Source of the DNA: Caryophanales bacterium
Lineage (GTDB): Bacteria; Bacillota_I; Bacilli_A; Izemoplasmatales; UBA1188
Length of the DNA: 34,900 bases
NCBI GenBank assembly: GCA_016287865.1
Contig: JAEEXP010000012.1
Span: 1 to 34,900, forward strand
Direction: 5' to 3'
The notes below the pieces were generated by a model. The model was not told the origin of the DNA. It saw only the letters and a list, made by a program, of their open reading frames with translations, and ran no database searches. This document shows, piece by piece, positions 6,994-16,625 of this stretch. Position 1 is the stretch's first letter. Every line of letters starts with the position of its first letter. A program made the translations under genes and the position numbers.

Positions 6994-6999
6994 TAAAAG

Positions 7000-7028
7000 T
7001 AAGACGGTTAATTCCGTCTTATTTTTTT
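7000..7028 (+). terminator. Intrinsic terminator of rplU-rpmA
   Basis: An 8-bp perfect stem, TAAGACGG (7000-7007) with CCGTCTTA (7014-7021), a 6-nt loop and seven T residues (7022-7028). Confidence 0.93.
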
Positions 7029-7099: not shown

Positions 7100-8236
7100 G
7101 TGGATAAAGATTTATATTCAAAAAAAGATCTAATTATTGTGAGAATTCTCACATTATTAGTATTTCTAGCTACATTTGCAGCTCTAACACTTCACATAAT
7201 ATTTAAGAAAGAATACTGGGATATTCTTCATTTTTCTTATTCAGCAATCATTTCATTTGTGCTTTCAATCTTACTACATGAATTAGGTCATTTAATCTTT
7301 GGTAAGATATCACACTATAAATATATTTCTTTCCAATTCTTATTCTTTAGACATACTAAAGTCGGAAAGAAATCTAGGATAAATGTAGAAAAATCAGTTA
7401 CTTTAGGTCAATGCTTAATGGGAACTGATGCAGAATCAAGAGATAAATTAAACTATAAGCTTTATTTAGCTGGTGGAGTGATTATGAACTCTATCCTCTT
7501 AGTATTAGCTCTTACAGGTTTAATTCTTATTTATGTTTTATTACATACACTAAGTCCATATCTCTTAGCTTTAGCCTTTATTAATGCATATTTAATCCCA
7601 GTAAATATCATTCCACTCAATAATCAAGGAATATATAATGATGGCTTAAATATCAAATTAATGAATAAATATGAAGGTGTTAAACACTTAATCATTAATA
7701 CACTTTGTCTTCAATATTTGATTAGTAACTTAGCTTCAATCAATGAAATCCCAGAAGAAGTATTAAATAATGATGGATTTGAAGTACCTCATTATATAAC
7801 TCATACATATGTGTTTGATTACTATAAAACCGTTAAAAGAATCGTAAATAATGAAGAAGATAAATTTGGTTTAATTAATGAAAGAAATAGAACTAAATAT
7901 GATCTTCCATATATCTATAGACTTCAAAACTATGAATTACTCTTATTTGAAAGATTAATCAATGATGAAGAATATATGTGGATTTATTCACTTAAAGAGA
8001 ATCAAAAATACTTTGAAAATGATAGTAGTTTCACAGTTAAACTATGTAATATCTTAAGAAGATACAAAGAAGATTCAATAGATTATCAAGGATTTACTGT
8101 TCGTCTTAGATTCTTGAAAGATGAATTATATGATGATGAAAATGAAATAATCAGCCAAGAATTAGGATATGCATTAATTAAACTCGCAGAAGACTATTCA
8201 GATAAAAGGGAGGAATTAAAGTTAAATGAAAATTAA
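7100..8236 (+). CDS. M50-like (site-2-protease-type) membrane metalloprotease
   Basis: Polytopic membrane protein with a zinc-protease signature. Helices lie at about residues 10-32 and 45-62; the HELGH motif (H60, E61, H64) is at the end of the second. Further helices at about 122-150 and 153-172 precede a second motif, N169-x-x-P172 ... D181-G, which matches the NxxPxxxxDG third-ligand motif of M50 enzymes. About 190 cytoplasmic-looking, charged residues follow, unlike any domain I recognise. An intact active site suggests intramembrane or juxtamembrane proteolysis; the substrate is unknown. The start is a GTG behind GGGAG. The end overlaps the next gene by 11 bp, so it is the first gene of a three-gene unit ending in the giant protein. 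Confidence 0.8.
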   Translation: MDKDLYSKKDLIIVRILTLLVFLATFAALTLHIIFKKEYWDILHFSYSAIISFVLSILLHELGHLIFGKISHYKYISFQFLFFRHTKVGKKSRINVEKSVTLGQCLMGTDAESRDKLNYKLYLAGGVIMNSILLVLALTGLILIYVLLHTLSPYLLALAFINAYLIPVNIIPLNNQGIYNDGLNIKLMNKYEGVKHLIINTLCLQYLISNLASINEIPEEVLNNDGFEVPHYITHTYVFDYYKTVKRIVNNEEDKFGLINERNRTKYDLPYIYRLQNYELLLFERLINDEEYMWIYSLKENQKYFENDSSFTVKLCNILRRYKEDSIDYQGFTVRLRFLKDELYDDENEIISQELGYALIKLAEDYSDKREELKLNEN

Positions 8237-8699
8237 TTTCACCCTAAATAAAGAAACACTAGAAAAATACTACAATTATGTTTTATTAAAAGAATTCTTA
8301 GTATTTATATTACCTCTTATAGTCTTGTTTACTACAGGAGGAATATTAGCTTATGTGTTCTTAAAGAAACTGTCTTATCTTCTTATACCTATCGTAGCTG
8401 AATTATTATTTATGTTATTAACCTATCTCATTAATAATTCGTCTAAGAGAGTAGCTTTAAAACAGTTAGAAAATTCATATTTTGAGTATTTATATGAATT
8501 AGACAATGAAACATTAAAAGTAATTGTGGGCTTCGAGACAATTGAATCAATAGCCCTAAATGAAATTATAATTAGATCTTTATTTAAGTTTTATTATTTT
8601 AAAACCAAGAATGGTAATTATTTAATGAATAAATCAAGCTTAGATAAAGAATATGTGAAAAACATTAACAGAAGGAGGTTACCATGGAGAGAGTCTTAA
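8226..8699 (+). CDS. Small membrane protein, possibly YcxB-like
   Basis: A 157-residue protein with two hydrophobic helices (about 22-46 and 49-69) after a short polar N-terminus, then a C-terminal domain of about 85 residues alternating charged and aliphatic stretches. The pattern of a helical hairpin plus a small beta-rich domain ending in a 'yl-x-K' strand (GNYLMNKSSLDK) recalls the YcxB-like family, but the match is by impression only. It overlaps the protease gene by 11 bp and the giant gene by 16 bp, so the three are almost certainly translated together. Ribosome site GGAGG lies upstream within the preceding gene. Confidence 0.75.
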   Translation: MKINFTLNKETLEKYYNYVLLKEFLVFILPLIVLFTTGGILAYVFLKKLSYLLIPIVAELLFMLLTYLINNSSKRVALKQLENSYFEYLYELDNETLKVIVGFETIESIALNEIIIRSLFKFYYFKTKNGNYLMNKSSLDKEYVKNINRRRLPWRES

Positions 8700-11600
8700 A
8701 CTTTATAGATCAATACATGTGGGCAGTAAACTTATTTTTCTATTTACTACTCTCATTCCCAATTCTCTACAACTTCTTTAAAGGCCTAGAAAAAGGTTTT
8801 AAAAGAAGTATATGGAATTTAGTATTTAAGCTTATTTTCCTTGGAGTATTTATATTTACCTTAGAATTAATCGCAAATAGCTTATATAATTCTAAGTTCT
8901 TTGGATTGCCTAATCGAATGACTGTATGGATCTTACATGAAGATTCATCTAGTGTGATGACATTTAAAGATTTCGCTCACTTATTCTATGAGAAATATTC
9001 TGAAAATCTATCAAATATGGCTGGAGGAATGGATGTTAATAATCCATATACACTCGCTTTAGTAGATATGTTTGGTGTATTTATCTTTAAGATTCTATGG
9101 GGAATTCTATACTTCACTATCATTAAATTCTTATGGTGGATTGTAAAGAAGATTCTATACGCTATATTCTTAAGAGATAAGAAAGAATTTGAAGGCATTA
9201 GAAAAGGTAGACTTGTAGGTTCAATGGTAGGCCTAGTTTCTGGTGTATTATCAATGTTTGTGATGATGGTCTATATTACAGGAATTATGTCGCTTGTAAG
9301 ATATACAGGCGAAATTAAACGAATTGAAGAAGGTTCACAAACAGAAGAAACTACTCAAAACGAAAACAATACTCAACAAACAGGTGAAATTGAAGTTGAT
9401 AATTATATTATTAAGCTCGCAGATGAAGAAGAACCTAGCGGTTCATCTAATTATGCGATGCAAGCCATTGAATACGTTCAAATGGTTTCAAAGAGACTTG
9501 TGAATTTCACTAAGTGTTGGACTGATAACTTCTACGTTAAAACTATCAATAAAATAAACGTAAAACTTGATACTGGAAACCTAGATGAAGAGGGTAAACC
9601 GGTATATGTAACTGAAAATGTACTCGATGCAACATTTGATACACTTGTTAGAATGACATATGTTTATGAGGAGACTGATGAAGAAGAAAAGACTCATAAA
9701 CTATCGGTAAGAGTTAACTTAGTTACTGAATTAAATAATATAATCAATGGTGTTTTATATTTAGTGGATGACGATAAAGTTATTAATTCAAATGGTACAT
9801 TAGACTTATCTAAAGTTAATCCTGACCGTGTTGAAATTGCGTTTAGTAAGCTTTCTGAGATTAACCTAATAAAAGTACTAGTTACTGTAGGTATTGGTAG
9901 TGCTGGTAAACAATATTTAGGCGAAGAAGCTACTGAAAGCGAAATTAGAGATTTAGCTTTAGCTGATTATACAGGTGATATCGCAAGACTTGGTAAGGCT
10001 TTCTCTGGCTTATTTGAACTTGGAATTGGTTCATTTATCCAAGATATGCTTAATAATCCTGGAGATATGGGTGGTATCGCAGTTAAGTTATTCAATGGAC
10101 TTACTCCAAAGAAGATTGAAGGTGAAACTGATCTAGAGTATGATCAAAGAGTAGCTAAAATAAGAAATAAGATTACTGATGCATTTGGAGATTTAAAACT
10201 ACTCCATAATGCTTCTAAAGTAGCTATTAGATTCCTCGCTAACAGCACTTTAAAACAATATATAGAAGAATTAGGATTAAACGAAAATGACGCTAACGCT
10301 GTCACTAACGGTCAATCACCTAAATCTTATATTCAAAACTTAATAAATACTGTATCGTTATCTGAAGATATCGGAACTATCTTTAAGATGGTATTTGATA
10401 CAGTTGACTTTAATGGCGGAGATGAAGGTAATATTGCATTCTTAATGGCTAATTACCTTGATTTAAATAAAGCATTAGAAGAAGATACTGAAAGAACTCT
10501 TACTCTAGATGACATTTCAGCTTATATGAATGTCTTACTATCTAGATTATCTGATTTAACATTCGTAAACTCACTCCTTGATATCGGAGTTAAAGCATTA
10601 ACTATAAAAATTCAAGGAACTGACTATTCTCAATATCTAACAGATGAAAACATCTATGGCGATACAGGTATCGACTGGAAACAAGAACTTGGAACTAAGA
10701 TTCCAAACCTCGTTACTGCAATAGTTGATGCTGATATCTTAGGACTTGTGATGGGCGAAGGTAATATCGTAGATAAGATTTGGAGTAAAGCTATCACAGA
10801 TGCTGGTCTTCAAGGATATCTAACTGATACAATTAACGCATTATTTGACCTCAAGATATTATCTAACTTCAATGATGCATCTATAAAAGGCTTATTAGAC
10901 CAATATTTAGGTGCTATGGATTTAGGAGGACTTAAGATTATTATCTCTGATAAACTTGGAACTCCAGGTCACAGAATTAAAGATGAATTATTAAACGTAA
11001 TTGGTCTTGCAGATGATATTACTAAGAGTGCTCACCTCAAAGGTGCACAAAGCTTCCAAGAAGTATTCGCTAATATTAAATATTTAATTTATGGTATTTC
11101 TGGCGTAGACGCTAAAAAGATTGAAGACTCAACTATTTTAGGTCCATCAATCGTTCATTTCCTTTCAAATAGCTCAATTGAAATGATTAAATCACCATAT
11201 ATTTATGAAGATAAAGCATGGTATTCTACATATAATGAACAAGGTGAATACGTAACATATGGTGAATTATATAATTTAGTTCAATCAATTAAAACTGTAG
11301 CTGCAAATGAAGATTTAATACAATTATTTGATAATACTAGTAGTTTTGACCCGCTAAATATCATTAAGAATTTAAGTGAAACTGAAATTAATAATCTATT
11401 TGCATCTAGAACAATTCAGTTAACATTATCTGATTTTGCGACAACATTTGATTCAGAACAGATTTCAATCAAGATTCCATCATATTCAGAAGAATATATC
11501 CTAGTATCTAACTATGCTAAGGATGATGAAGGTAATCCAACAACTGAAGGCGTTACACTTACTTCTGAATACTTACTTGATGAAGATGGAAACCAAGTAC

Positions 11601-14600
11601 TAATCGATGAACACCCTGTAAAACTCGCACAAACTAAGGTTATTAAGAAGACTGAAATGGTATCTTTAGTTAATGCGCTTAAGGAAGTTACTGATATTTC
11701 ATCATTAACTGATTCATCTAAGATTCTAGATACTATTAAGACATTTGATGGTCCATCAGTTAAGAATCCAAGTATTTCTAAACTCGATGTAATACTTGAA
11801 TCTAATATTTTAAGATGTTCTATCTCATTCTATTTAACAGGTGAACATTACGATAATTTCTTAATCTATCCTGTTGAAGTATTTGAAGAAGATGGAGAAA
11901 CTAAATATATTACACAAACTGATATGTCTAAGTTATTCACATCAATTATTGTTTTATTAAATGAAACTAACTTAGATAACCTAGATTCTATCGACTTTAA
12001 TAGCTTTAAGAGTTTAAGTGATGCATCTGATGAAAACTTAGATAAGATTGCAAGTTCATCTATTTTAAGAGCTACTTTATCAGATAAGATTTTAACTGCA
12101 TCAGATGCAGTAGTAATCCCATCAAGCGCTAAAGAATTAAGCCCTAAATACGCTTGGGATGATGCTACGCAAGTATTAAATATTGATTCAACATATAAAA
12201 TCATTACAAAACAAGAAGTAAAAGCTTTACTTAAGGCTATTGGATTTATTGACTTTGATTCAATGGAAGATTCAACTTCAATTATCTCTTTAGTAGATAC
12301 ATTTAACACTAATTCAGAGACAATTCTATCATCTGAGATACTTAGATGTTCTATATCTCACTTCTTAACAGGTGACCACTACGATAACTTCTTTACTTAT
12401 CCGTATAAAGTTAATGTAAGTGGAAGTGATTATATTCTTTTTGAATATGATACAGATAACGCTCAATACTATATTAAGAAAGCTGATTTACAAGATTTAT
12501 TCTTATCTATTGATGTATTAATCGATGAAACAGGATTTAGTGATTTAAATAACGTTAACTTCGATATGTTTAAACAACTTAATTCAACAACAGATGAAAA
12601 CATGAATAAGATTGTGAAATCTTCAATTCTAAGAGCTACTTTATCAGATAAAATAAAGAGTGCATCTACATCAGTAATTATTCCAACAAGCGTAAAAGAA
12701 GGCATTGAAATAATTACTTATAACACTGGAACTAATGAAGTGGAATTTGATAATACTTATAAAGCAATTAACCAAGATGAAATTAAGTATTTATTAAAAG
12801 CTATTGGATACTTAGATTTCGATTCAATGGATTCATCAACCGCTATCATGGATACAGTTAAGACATTCAATACTAATTCAGAAACTATTTTAAGATCTGA
12901 TATCTTAAGAGCTTCTGTATCACACTTCTTAACTGGTGATAGCTATGATAATTACTTTGTATATCCGTATAAAGTAGATAATGGAGTAGTTAGTTATGAA
13001 CTCTTTGAATATGACTCTGGAAATACTCAATATTATCTTAAGAAAGCTGATTTACAAGAATTATTTGAATCTATTTCAATCCTTATGGATGATGCAGGAT
13101 TTGGTGATTTAAGTACTGTAAACTTCGATTTATTCAAAGATTTATCATTAATTAGCGAAACTAAGATGAATAAACTTGTAGAAAGTAAAATCTTTGATGC
13201 GACTATCTCAAATAAGCTAAATGATGCCTTTGGTTCATCAACTCAAAAGATTTTAATCCCATATGGCGCAACTATTAAATCATCTAAATTAGTAGAAAAC
13301 GCAAGTGTATGGGAAGAAGGAGATACAGATTTCAGATATATTAAATCTACTGAAATTAAGTATTTAATTAGAGCTTTATACTATATCGACTTCGATATGC
13401 TTGGAAATTCAAGTAATGCATTCGATTCATTAAGTGATTTAAATAAACCATCACTTGAAACTGGTAAGACTAAACTTGATGTAATTTTAAGATCATCTAT
13501 CCTCAATGCAACATTCAGTGATGTAATTATGGGTATGGATCTTGATTCAATGAGCTTAATCGTTCTTGAAGACGCTATTGATAAAACGGATAAGTTTACT
13601 GAGAGTGGTGTTACATACTTATATGATGAGAATGAAGCACACTATAAGAAAGCACTATCTTCAGGCATTATTAGTAGTGAAGAAATAATTAACTTAATTA
13701 AGGCATTAAAGTATATTGATTTATCTAAATTCACTAATGGAGATGATATATTCGGTGTACTAAAAGATTTAACTAAGACTGTATCTTTAACAAGTAATAC
13801 ACTAAAGATTGATGCTATCTTAAATTCTAAGATTTTAAATGCAACAATTGCTAACTACATCATTAAACTTAATGGTATATCAATTGATATTAATGTTCCA
13901 TTCAATGATGATGTACTTGAAAGTGAAGCTGGAACTCCTGTGAAGTTTAATAACTTACTTGCAAATAGCTCAAATAATGTTCAAAAAGAAGTATATCTAA
14001 TTAAAGATTCTGAACTTAGAGCATTCATCTTAGCCGCAGGTTCAATCGACCTTAATAAGATGTCAACTAATCCAGATGAAGCTATTGTAATGTTATCTAA
14101 TAAGATTAGAATCGCATCAGTTCAATATGTTATTTATGATCTTATTACAGCATCTAAGATTTTAAGTACTTCTATATCTAATTATATAGTTTCAAAGAGT
14201 GCAGATTTAGGCTTCTCAAGCATTGTATTCCCTATCGATGAATTAGATGAAACAGAAGTATTAAAGATTAATGTTGCATCAAATGGTGTAGTTACAAATA
14301 GTAATAAACATTCAATCGTTATTGATGCATCTGAATTAACTAGATTTATCATCGCATTATCTCACTTAGATTTAAGTAATATTGCATCTGATACTCTAGG
14401 TGCAATTCAATCATTAAATGAATTAATTCCTGGAACAAGTACTTCAAAGATTGATGTAATATTAGATTCAGAAATTATTAGATATACATTATCTAAGCAA
14501 ATCGAAGAAGCAGCTGGTACAGGTGCAACTCCTAACTTTATCATTCCAAAACAAGCATTTGAACTTAATGGCGCTAATATCAAGGATTATAGCGTTTATA

Positions 14601-16405
14601 GTTCATTTAATGAGAATACAGGCGTGATTACATCTTCAACTAGCAAACTTCTCTTAGAAAGCGAAATTCTAAGCCTAATTAACGCTTTAGATTATCTAGA
14701 TTTAAATAGTATTACAGCTAATGACGTTATTAATTTAAGCTATGATACTCTTGAGAATAAGCTTTTAGCTTCTAAGATTATTCACGCAAATGTATCTGAT
14801 AAGTTTAAGACATCTCTATCAAGTAATAGTCACGTTGGTACAGCTTATAACACATTAATGGAATCAGATGAATTAACATATGACCCAACTAATAGTAGTG
14901 CTGTATGGCTTGAAACAGTTACTAAGACAGAAATATTAAACGTATTCCAAGCTTTAAAAGTTATGGGTACAAATGATATGGATAACTTTGAAATCTCTCC
15001 AGAAGTACTATTTATCCTTACGGATGATGGTAATAATGCAAATGATGATACTCAAGTAAGAAACGTTGAAACAAGAGTAGACTTCTTAATGTCTATATTT
15101 ATTAGAACTTACTTAACTAACTATGCAACATTCTTCTCAAGTTCTACAGATTATGAAGGATTAGCTACTGCTAAAGTAGGCGCTAAGAATTATCTTAAGA
15201 TTTCTGCAATCACAAATACACAAGATTCATACTATAGTCAATCATTTGATTCAACACCATCATATAGTGAATTAACTATAAATGATACTGATCATAGAGT
15301 TGAATGGGAACCATGTACATTAAGTGGTGGTCTTATAACTTATTATATTTATATTGATGGTAGAAAGATTGATACAGGATCTCCAATAACAGTCAATTAT
15401 TCTACAGATCTATATACAGAATATATGAATGCAGGAGTTGGAGACCATAAGATTCAAGTTGTAGCGGTAGGTGCATCTATGGCTGGTATAACAAAACCAT
15501 TTATTTATACTGAAAAACAAAAACCTAGAGAATATGATCCAACACCTATAGCTCAAGTAAGTGGTGTATCATATGATGAAACAACAACTACACTTACATT
15601 CAATGGTGTAGAACGTGCTGATTATTATCTAATTATATTTACTGATGAAAACAGTAATGAAATAAGATATACAATCAAAGAACAATGGTCACCTGGACTT
15701 GTAATATCTCGTAATATCAAAGATATATTAGTAAAAGGTCATAGTTATAGTTATAGCATTGCAGGATATTCTAATAGCCAATATATCCTCAGTCATGCAC
15801 CTTACAACTCATTAAATGATATTAGATATTATGCAGATTCTGAACAACTAGAAGTTGAATATAATAATGATGGATTATTATACTTCACTAATTTAGATTT
15901 CAGTGATTCTACATTCACATATGAATATTTAATTATGATAAATAGTGATGATTATTACTATATACCTGGTGAATCAACTAGTGATTTATATGATTTAATT
16001 GAAAGACATGGATCTTACTTCACATTAGATTTAAGAGATAGTTCATTAAATCTTGATTATGGTTCAATAACAATAGAAATCTATGCATCTAAATCCTTAT
16101 ATTCTGGATCATATAACACTATTACAATCAATAAGATAGATAAACAACCAGTCATTAATTATAATGGCGAAACTGAAGTATTATCTATGACAAGCATCAA
16201 TTATGGAACACAAGTAGAAGTTAAAATCACTAGTGTATCTGATCCTGATACTGTATTAATGTATAAGATATATACTATTCAATCTAATAGCATTAGCGTT
16301 GATGTTAAGAAACTAGCTAAAGACACTGAATATGTAGTAACTTATACAATCATATCAAATTCAAATTATCTAACTGATACATTTGATTATAACCTAGAAA
16401 AATAG
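8684..16405 (+). CDS. Giant 2,573-residue membrane-anchored repeat protein with CvpA-like N-terminus
   Basis: The function is not known to me. Four hydrophobic segments (about residues 11-32, 44-64, 126-158, 178-204) with an amphipathic, GKGxx-like basic stretch resemble the layout of CvpA/colicin V production family proteins, which are normally only 160-200 residues. A polar Thr/Gln/Asn/Glu linker (215-250) leads into an acidic, Asn/Ser/Asp-rich region. From about residue 911 to 2045 a module of 85-130 residues repeats, each with an 'S-x-I-L-R/N-A-T-x-S' core (cores at 911, 1042, 1127, 1219, 1315, 1407, 1503, 1606, 1717, 1826, 1931 and 2032) preceded by a helix of the form E-I-x-x-L-I-x-A-L-x-x-I-D-F/L. 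The last 380 residues look like beta-sandwich (Ig/FN3-type) domains. There is no LPXTG or C-terminal membrane helix. It starts behind a perfect AAGGAGG and is the third gene of an overlapping unit with an M50-like protease. A large envelope or cell-surface protein is the simplest reading; adhesion or scaffolding is speculation. Confidence 0.88.
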   Translation: MERVLNFIDQYMWAVNLFFYLLLSFPILYNFFKGLEKGFKRSIWNLVFKLIFLGVFIFTLELIANSLYNSKFFGLPNRMTVWILHEDSSSVMTFKDFAHLFYEKYSENLSNMAGGMDVNNPYTLALVDMFGVFIFKILWGILYFTIIKFLWWIVKKILYAIFLRDKKEFEGIRKGRLVGSMVGLVSGVLSMFVMMVYITGIMSLVRYTGEIKRIEEGSQTEETTQNENNTQQTGEIEVDNYIIKLADEEEPSGSSNYAMQAIEYVQMVSKRLVNFTKCWTDNFYVKTINKINVKLDTGNLDEEGKPVYVTENVLDATFDTLVRMTYVYEETDEEEKTHKLSVRVNLVTELNNIINGVLYLVDDDKVINSNGTLDLSKVNPDRVEIAFSKLSEINLIKVLVTVGIGSAGKQYLGEEATESEIRDLALADYTGDIARLGKAFSGLFELGIGSFIQDMLNNPGDMGGIAVKLFNGLTPKKIEGETDLEYDQRVAKIRNKITDAFGDLKLLHNASKVAIRFLANSTLKQYIEELGLNENDANAVTNGQSPKSYIQNLINTVSLSEDIGTIFKMVFDTVDFNGGDEGNIAFLMANYLDLNKALEEDTERTLTLDDISAYMNVLLSRLSDLTFVNSLLDIGVKALTIKIQGTDYSQYLTDENIYGDTGIDWKQELGTKIPNLVTAIVDADILGLVMGEGNIVDKIWSKAITDAGLQGYLTDTINALFDLKILSNFNDASIKGLLDQYLGAMDLGGLKIIISDKLGTPGHRIKDELLNVIGLADDITKSAHLKGAQSFQEVFANIKYLIYGISGVDAKKIEDSTILGPSIVHFLSNSSIEMIKSPYIYEDKAWYSTYNEQGEYVTYGELYNLVQSIKTVAANEDLIQLFDNTSSFDPLNIIKNLSETEINNLFASRTIQLTLSDFATTFDSEQISIKIPSYSEEYILVSNYAKDDEGNPTTEGVTLTSEYLLDEDGNQVLIDEHPVKLAQTKVIKKTEMVSLVNALKEVTDISSLTDSSKILDTIKTFDGPSVKNPSISKLDVILESNILRCSISFYLTGEHYDNFLIYPVEVFEEDGETKYITQTDMSKLFTSIIVLLNETNLDNLDSIDFNSFKSLSDASDENLDKIASSSILRATLSDKILTASDAVVIPSSAKELSPKYAWDDATQVLNIDSTYKIITKQEVKALLKAIGFIDFDSMEDSTSIISLVDTFNTNSETILSSEILRCSISHFLTGDHYDNFFTYPYKVNVSGSDYILFEYDTDNAQYYIKKADLQDLFLSIDVLIDETGFSDLNNVNFDMFKQLNSTTDENMNKIVKSSILRATLSDKIKSASTSVIIPTSVKEGIEIITYNTGTNEVEFDNTYKAINQDEIKYLLKAIGYLDFDSMDSSTAIMDTVKTFNTNSETILRSDILRASVSHFLTGDSYDNYFVYPYKVDNGVVSYELFEYDSGNTQYYLKKADLQELFESISILMDDAGFGDLSTVNFDLFKDLSLISETKMNKLVESKIFDATISNKLNDAFGSSTQKILIPYGATIKSSKLVENASVWEEGDTDFRYIKSTEIKYLIRALYYIDFDMLGNSSNAFDSLSDLNKPSLETGKTKLDVILRSSILNATFSDVIMGMDLDSMSLIVLEDAIDKTDKFTESGVTYLYDENEAHYKKALSSGIISSEEIINLIKALKYIDLSKFTNGDDIFGVLKDLTKTVSLTSNTLKIDAILNSKILNATIANYIIKLNGISIDINVPFNDDVLESEAGTPVKFNNLLANSSNNVQKEVYLIKDSELRAFILAAGSIDLNKMSTNPDEAIVMLSNKIRIASVQYVIYDLITASKILSTSISNYIVSKSADLGFSSIVFPIDELDETEVLKINVASNGVVTNSNKHSIVIDASELTRFIIALSHLDLSNIASDTLGAIQSLNELIPGTSTSKIDVILDSEIIRYTLSKQIEEAAGTGATPNFIIPKQAFELNGANIKDYSVYSSFNENTGVITSSTSKLLLESEILSLINALDYLDLNSITANDVINLSYDTLENKLLASKIIHANVSDKFKTSLSSNSHVGTAYNTLMESDELTYDPTNSSAVWLETVTKTEILNVFQALKVMGTNDMDNFEISPEVLFILTDDGNNANDDTQVRNVETRVDFLMSIFIRTYLTNYATFFSSSTDYEGLATAKVGAKNYLKISAITNTQDSYYSQSFDSTPSYSELTINDTDHRVEWEPCTLSGGLITYYIYIDGRKIDTGSPITVNYSTDLYTEYMNAGVGDHKIQVVAVGASMAGITKPFIYTEKQKPREYDPTPIAQVSGVSYDETTTTLTFNGVERADYYLIIFTDENSNEIRYTIKEQWSPGLVISRNIKDILVKGHSYSYSIAGYSNSQYILSHAPYNSLNDIRYYADSEQLEVEYNNDGLLYFTNLDFSDSTFTYEYLIMINSDDYYYIPGESTSDLYDLIERHGSYFTLDLRDSSLNLDYGSITIEIYASKSLYSGSYNTITINKIDKQPVINYNGETEVLSMTSINYGTQVEVKITSVSDPDTVLMYKIYTIQSNSISVDVKKLAKDTEYVVTYTIISNSNYLTDTFDYNLEK
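11807..13498 (+). repeat. Three tandem double-module repeats inside the giant gene
   Basis: Three consecutive units of about 530-600 bp (starting at 11807, 12338 and 12902) are recognisably similar also at the DNA level. Each opens with the ILRxS core followed by LTG and YDN-F/Y-F, then a tyrosine-rich strand region, a D-L-Q/S-x-L-F helix, a second ILRAT core or its diverged form, and an E-I/V-K-x-L-L-K-A-I-G helix ending each unit. They look like the most recent internal duplications in the gene; flanking modules are more diverged. Confidence 0.8.
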
Positions 16406-16407
16406 GT

Positions 16408-16437
16408 GAAAATGAGGCATTAATTTGCCTCATTTTC
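16408..16437 (+). terminator. Intrinsic terminator of the giant-protein operon
   Basis: A perfect 12-bp inverted repeat, GAAAATGAGGCA (16408-16419) with TGCCTCATTTTC (16426-16437), and a 6-nt loop, starting 3 bp after the stop codon. Confidence 0.9.
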
Positions 16438-16597: not shown

Positions 16598-16625
16598 TTG
16601 ATAAATCTCATTATTATATTATAAT
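16598..16625 (+). promoter_or_regulatory. SigA-type promoter of obgE-ruvA
   Basis: TTGATA (16598-16603), a 16-bp spacer and TATAAT (16620-16625). The start would fall near 16632, leaving a leader of only about 17 nt that consists mainly of the AAGGAG ribosome site. The rest of 16438-16597 is AT-rich and shows only a small AGGTA/TACCT hairpin. Confidence 0.75.

Follow-up and report, generated by a model that had tools for sequence, protein, structure and literature searches.

The locus and its genes

The window analysed here, a stretch of 34,900 nucleotides from a 1.33 Mb MAG of the Izemoplasmatales with 6.7% estimated contamination, carries a gene for a protein of 2,573 residues. The initial annotation had described an intact frame with a very strong ribosome site in a housekeeping region, and all three points hold: the translated frame contains no internal stop, the ribosome site is perfect, and valS, folC, radC, rplU, rpmA, obgE and ruvA, together with an ABC transporter, make up the surroundings. 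No colicin or purF gene was found among the window's assigned genes. The features of the immediate locus are as follows.

6995..7026, + strand: terminator-like hairpin closing rplU-rpmA, 13 pairs plus a T-run
7100..8236, + strand: gene for an M50-peptidase-like membrane protein of 378 aa, first of its unit, its place conserved in congeners
8226..8699, + strand: gene for a 157-aa protein in which two hydrophobic stretches are visible by eye
8673..8678, + strand: AGGAGG ribosome site, perfect match, 5 bases upstream of the giant's ATG
8684..16405, + strand: giant protein gene, 2,573 aa plus stop, with orthologues in congeners
16408..16437, either strand: bidirectional terminator-like hairpin after the giant gene, a sequence consensus match only
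16598..16625, + strand: promoter-like site before obgE, 11/12, a consensus match only

The start codon of the giant lies inside the end of the 157-aa gene, with an overlap of 16 bases, and a gene of 156-157 aa occupies the equivalent position in two of three congeners. The M50-like gene, the 157-aa gene and the giant, which comes last, appear to form a three-gene unit between terminator-like hairpins, and the promoter-like site before obgE means that transcription of the latter need not come from this unit. The match of the 378-aa protein to the M50 family (PF02163, E 8e-4) is below the Pfam cut-off. In B. subtilis, the M50 protease gene spoIVFB also adjoins rplU-rpmA, as the M50-like gene does here beside rpmA.

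Predicted membrane anchor, linker and repeat array

Searched as a whole against Pfam and NCBIfam, the 2,573-aa protein returns nothing significant, and neither collection finds a protease domain in it. Five regions can be distinguished along its length.

8684..9310, + strand: residues 1-209, four-TM CvpA-related (PF02674-like) anchor, predicted N-out/C-out
9311..9451, + strand: residues 210-256, polar disordered linker, AF2 pLDDT about 30
9452..11125, + strand: residues 257-814, conserved post-membrane region with invariant F318 and D319 and near-invariant W665
11126..14992, + strand: residues 815-2103, 13 tandem modules from an iterated HMM, starting at residues 815, 905, 1037, 1124, 1214, 1311, 1402, 1498, 1601, 1712, 1821, 1926 and 2027
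15251..16402, + strand: residues about 2190-2573, FN3/Ig-like beta tail by sequence appearance, boundary set by eye

The four-helix N-terminus noted initially is seen both as four hydrophobic regions in the hydropathy profile and as four AF2 helices (12-37, 39-69, 121-163 and 176-209; pLDDT about 87-89), whose number and spacing fit the CvpA family. The giant's own N-terminus gives no match to PF02674 in Pfam; the same model matches the N-termini of 18 of 32 relatives (best E 7.6e-8), and its curated cut-off is exceeded by giants of the window's own order (30.1-31.8 bits) and by those of families f10 and f7 (31.4 and 32.5 bits). Aligned by hhalign with standalone CvpA, the family profile reaches 84% probability, over helices 3-4, and a genus-only profile a weak 16%, yet co-linear over 182 columns. 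These profile comparisons support a relationship of the anchor to CvpA, and the CvpA-like anchor of the initial annotation stands at the level of the family, if not of the window sequence or its genus taken alone. Its premise that CvpA proteins normally stay under 200 residues does not apply in this order, where standalone members measure about 245-270 aa and longer fusions exist.

The loops of the membrane domain are consistently charged. Across 25 sequences, basic and acidic residues average 3.0 and 0.1 in loop 1, 10.1 and 1.7 in loop 3, 0.7 and 5.3 in loop 2, and 8.3 and 29.8 in the region after TM4, a distribution which, by the positive-inside rule, places the C-terminal side outside. The repeat array is accordingly predicted to be extracellular, a prediction supported by these loop charges and by the lipoprotein-type neighbours of the sister family f3 described below. 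A cleavable signal peptide was not found, the N-terminus being the first TM of the four-TM domain, and the lack of a sorting signal reported earlier is borne out by a polar C-terminus ending in FDYNLEK. The entire protein holds four cysteines only, and its net charge beyond residue 215 is -162.

The polar linker, also noticed initially, corresponds to the stretch after the four helices that AF2 leaves disordered. When residues 1-900 were modelled with AF2, confidence was sufficient only in the membrane domain and in parts as far as about residue 560, and a PDB search with this model gave no match. Further along, the initial count of about 12 modules of roughly 100 residues was right as to a tandem array and needs correction as to number and size, the iterated profile (73 core positions) placing 13 modules at a spacing of 87-132 residues. 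Applied to relatives, the same profile counts 1-28 modules, so that the length of the array does vary among related genomes. Modules 3, 5 and 7 share 38-61% mutual identity and modules 4 and 6 share 57%, identities between a module and the next but one reaching 57-61% in mid-array; module 1 and modules 9-13 find their best matches at the corresponding positions in congeners. These identities show growth of the array middle by two-module duplications, and the same alternating pattern recurs in family f3.

An AF2 model of four modules (residues 1308-1711; 77 rows; pLDDT 77, pTM 0.79) predicts a repeating alpha-beta-beta-alpha-alpha fold, composed of a helix, two or three strands and two helices. 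The initial annotation had named a match of the modules to a characterised domain as the result that would overturn it, and the searches brought none: Foldseek against the PDB gave a best E of 0.49 and nothing at or below 0.001 for the module model, the module sequence profile found nothing significant among PDB sequences, and Pfam returned scattered matches and no family for 77 module segments. An EF-hand reading was rejected, EF-hand_6 appearing in 11 of the 77 segments (best E 1.9e-5) with the rest scattered, which was judged to be chance, as was a hemocyanin match in the PDB sequence search (E 0.037). The predicted fold thus appears to have no solved relative, a comparison made with the solved structures of the PDB, so that 'new fold' should be read in that sense only. 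The tail looks FN3-like in spacing and motifs by eye, as had been proposed; the tails of five congeners give no significant match in Pfam, to FN3, Ig or any other family, and this beta-rich part is confined to the window's genus and does not belong to the family core.

A family of giants and its spread among Bacilli

A scan of genome contigs with the single protein gave no matches; an alignment of seven relatives did find relatives and was used for searching, one of 25 rows being too diverse for this purpose. Matches to the giant occur in 48 of 61 relatives. Within the genus, the gene lies between rplU-rpmA-M50 and obgE-ruvA (G000, G001, G005 and G006). Three congeners share this gene order, with orthologues that measure 2,319-2,905 aa, and a fourth (G004) has an incomplete orthologue beside obgE on a partial contig. 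This recurring gene order indicates that the window contig is not a contaminant. True absence of the gene from two further congeners (G002, G003) was considered and rejected, obgE being missing there too, as expected from assembly loss. The giant is absent from G007, a single contig of 99% completeness from the same genus as two carriers, and from G011, another member of the order, so it is not indispensable.

A family profile built on the first 450 residues was searched in 395 genomes of the class and detected the family in 137, in Izemoplasmatales and many other families of Bacilli, mostly as frames of 1,000-6,000 aa; the weak matches near E 1e-3 in f13, f17 and f24 may not be giants. A phylum-level search returned matches from the same class only, in a set whose share of other classes is not stated. 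Families f10, f12, f16 and f18 directly show the arrangement of membrane domain, conserved region and modules, and f22 shares it with a middle part that is not recognised. In f7, f9 and f20, the first parts were found and the modules are no longer recognised by the profile. Acholeplasma brassicae O502 (PMC4221730) has a 1,215-aa member with no recognised module. A tree of the membrane domain follows the families closely, with 12 label changes against a least possible 10, and suggests mostly vertical descent. The sister family f3 has a long and a short paralogue in tandem, and its short copies form one clade.

The protein had been called one of unknown family, which is right in that no database match exists and needs amending in that it is no singleton: within the genomes compared, the giant is shown to be a member of a large, conserved and unannotated family, not an orphan. 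A literature search, largely of open papers and without preprints, found no description of it. The family is probably a widespread, putative surface component of small-genome Bacilli.

As a separate observation, family f7, whose genomes have PBPs, holds CvpA-type giants that range from 4,165 to more than 5,300 aa (L127:1-16148 in G169; L132:4618-17115 in G263), with repeats that the module profile no longer detects.

Proposed role and competing explanations

We consider it reasonably probable that the giant is a CvpA-tethered extracellular rod or scaffold, with a predicted role in adhesion or as a surface coat, much as the initial annotation had conjectured in speaking of a scaffold or adhesin. 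The first ~210 residues would fix the protein in the membrane through four CvpA-type helices, both ends of this anchor lying outside, and would double as the export signal, in which case neither a cleavable signal peptide nor a sorting motif would be needed. The anchor would be followed by a flexible linker, a conserved membrane-proximal region and 13 alpha/beta modules of unsolved fold, with FN3-like end domains in this genus, and the array would project outwards, forming a rod or coat that lengthens or shortens as two-module units are gained or lost. An outward, acidic, cysteine-poor and length-variable array behind a four-helix anchor is what would be expected of a surface rod or coat; orientation, surface position and rod shape are inferred. 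The protein shows no recognisable domain for ligand binding or self-assembly. The most likely task would be structural or adhesive, namely cell spacing, coating or attachment.

The giant can be compared with several known systems. It shares with CvpA (Colicin_V, PF02674) four membrane helices in co-linear spacing, with Pfam matches in most relatives, some above the cut-off, but adds ~2,360 residues predicted to be extracytoplasmic, and the window sequence is itself below PF02674 detection. The mycobacterial MarP (Rv3671c) combines a CvpA-like TM region with a serine protease in about 400 aa; it resembles the giant in having a CvpA-type polytopic anchor with a C-terminal extracytoplasmic domain (predicted in the giant), whose cargo is instead a long module array with no protease domain found. 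The Giant1-5 proteins of Apilactobacillus kunkeei, another small-genome member of the Bacilli, are likewise very long with imperfect internal repeats, but they start with a Sec signal peptide, are not predicted to contain a TM domain and end in an SH3b-like region presumed to bind the wall (PMC12863079). The giant described here has instead a polytopic anchor at its N-terminus, in a host for which a wall is not expected. Bap and other Ig-like repeat adhesins, such as that of A. baumannii (PMC4647330), also consist of arrays of 80-110-aa modules, and the giant's genus-specific tail resembles FN3/Ig; its core modules, however, are mixed alpha/beta and not Ig-like, and it lacks a visible cleavable signal peptide and a C-terminal sorting or secretion signal. 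A classical LPXTG repeat adhesin would likewise carry the N-terminal signal peptide and C-terminal sorting signal that the giant lacks.

A more specific proposal, which we regard as unlikely, is that the giants form an S-layer-like or load-bearing coat partly replacing peptidoglycan in wall-less Bacilli. A PBP transpeptidase is absent from the window's genome and from all but one of its 60 relatives, and MurG is above the cut-off in none of the 61 order genomes, which makes the host wall-less by genotype; the sole exception (G050:C40:12172-13092, E 7e-69) may be contamination or real. Hujiaoplasma nucleasis zrk29 and Xianfuyuplasma coldseepsis zrk13, which show no wall in TEM (PMC10470597, PMC8397711), both carry giants, of 2,941 and 955 aa in the former and of 2,342 aa in the latter, and the A. 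brassicae member may be added on the same side. A strict tie of the family to wall loss is nevertheless not supported, PBPs accompanying the family in 43 of its 137 class genomes. Sorted by PBP status, 43 of the 174 genomes with PBPs have the family, as do 94 of the 221 without, counts uncorrected for kinship. The family is also absent from the small complete genomes of f6 and f17, which are not PBP-positive, and from the PBP-less G007, and no array-forming domain is known in the giant; this distribution means that wall replacement is not required. It seems equally doubtful that CvpA-anchored giants, undescribed across the class, make up a proteinaceous exoskeleton of small-genome Bacilli which predates peptidoglycan loss and lets free-living Izemoplasmatales and Acholeplasma live wall-less.

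The genes beside the giants raise another possibility, to which we give little credence, namely that the array is a nutrient-capture platform, binding polymers of nucleic acid or protein on which nucleases, nucleotidases and proteases at the surface would act. Genes for a trypsin-like protease (11 loci) and a 5'-nucleotidase (10 loci) adjoin the long and short paralogues in f3, their copies in L036 beginning with a lipoprotein-type signal as read by eye, and Izemoplasmatales are DNA degraders (PMC10470597, PMC8397711). Such neighbours support a surface role without telling which, but neither the window's locus nor the other families have them, and the strongly acidic region beyond residue 215 is ill-suited to nucleic acid binding. 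Neighbours vary by family, from the M50 and 157-aa genes in f1 to protease and nucleotidase in f3 and the vicinity of dnaE in f12, and thus reveal no shared pathway from which a role could be read. The f12 giants adjoin or lie near a ~990-aa gene that is dnaE-like by eye in four genomes (L123, L124, L125 and L133).

Less likely still is the opposite topology, a cytoplasmic scaffold hung from the membrane, which few cysteines, acidic composition and partly helical modules would fit as well, but against which stand the basic charge of loops 1 and 3 and the acidic charge of loop 2, seen consistently in the 25 sequences, the surface-type neighbours in f3 and the FN3-like tail, of a type usually extracytoplasmic. 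That the frame is open by chance, an artefact of assembly or part of a contaminant contig, conceivable in a MAG with some estimated contamination, is refuted by the congeneric orthologues in the same gene order, the incomplete fourth beside obgE and the 137 family-positive class genomes.

A CvpA-tethered surface rod or scaffold would bear on the open question of how bacteria that live freely without a wall maintain a coherent, attached surface. With members in two cultured species that lack a wall, this large, conserved and unannotated family of candidate surface proteins makes that question testable. It further offers a repeat fold unmatched among solved structures and a new use of CvpA, which is familiar chiefly from small proteins.

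Two shorter CvpA fusions were also encountered. One, of about 775-778 aa in f2 (L108:1664-4000 in G009, L112:1483-3831 in G007 and L114:1841-4162 in G025), has an N-terminal PF02674 (35.5 bits in L108) followed by sequence without assignment, and is present also in giant-less genomes. The other, of about 396 aa with an unassigned C-terminal half, occurs in the window's genus (L109:1479-2669 and L110:2058-3245; 30-34 bits) and adjoins a hydrolase-like gene.
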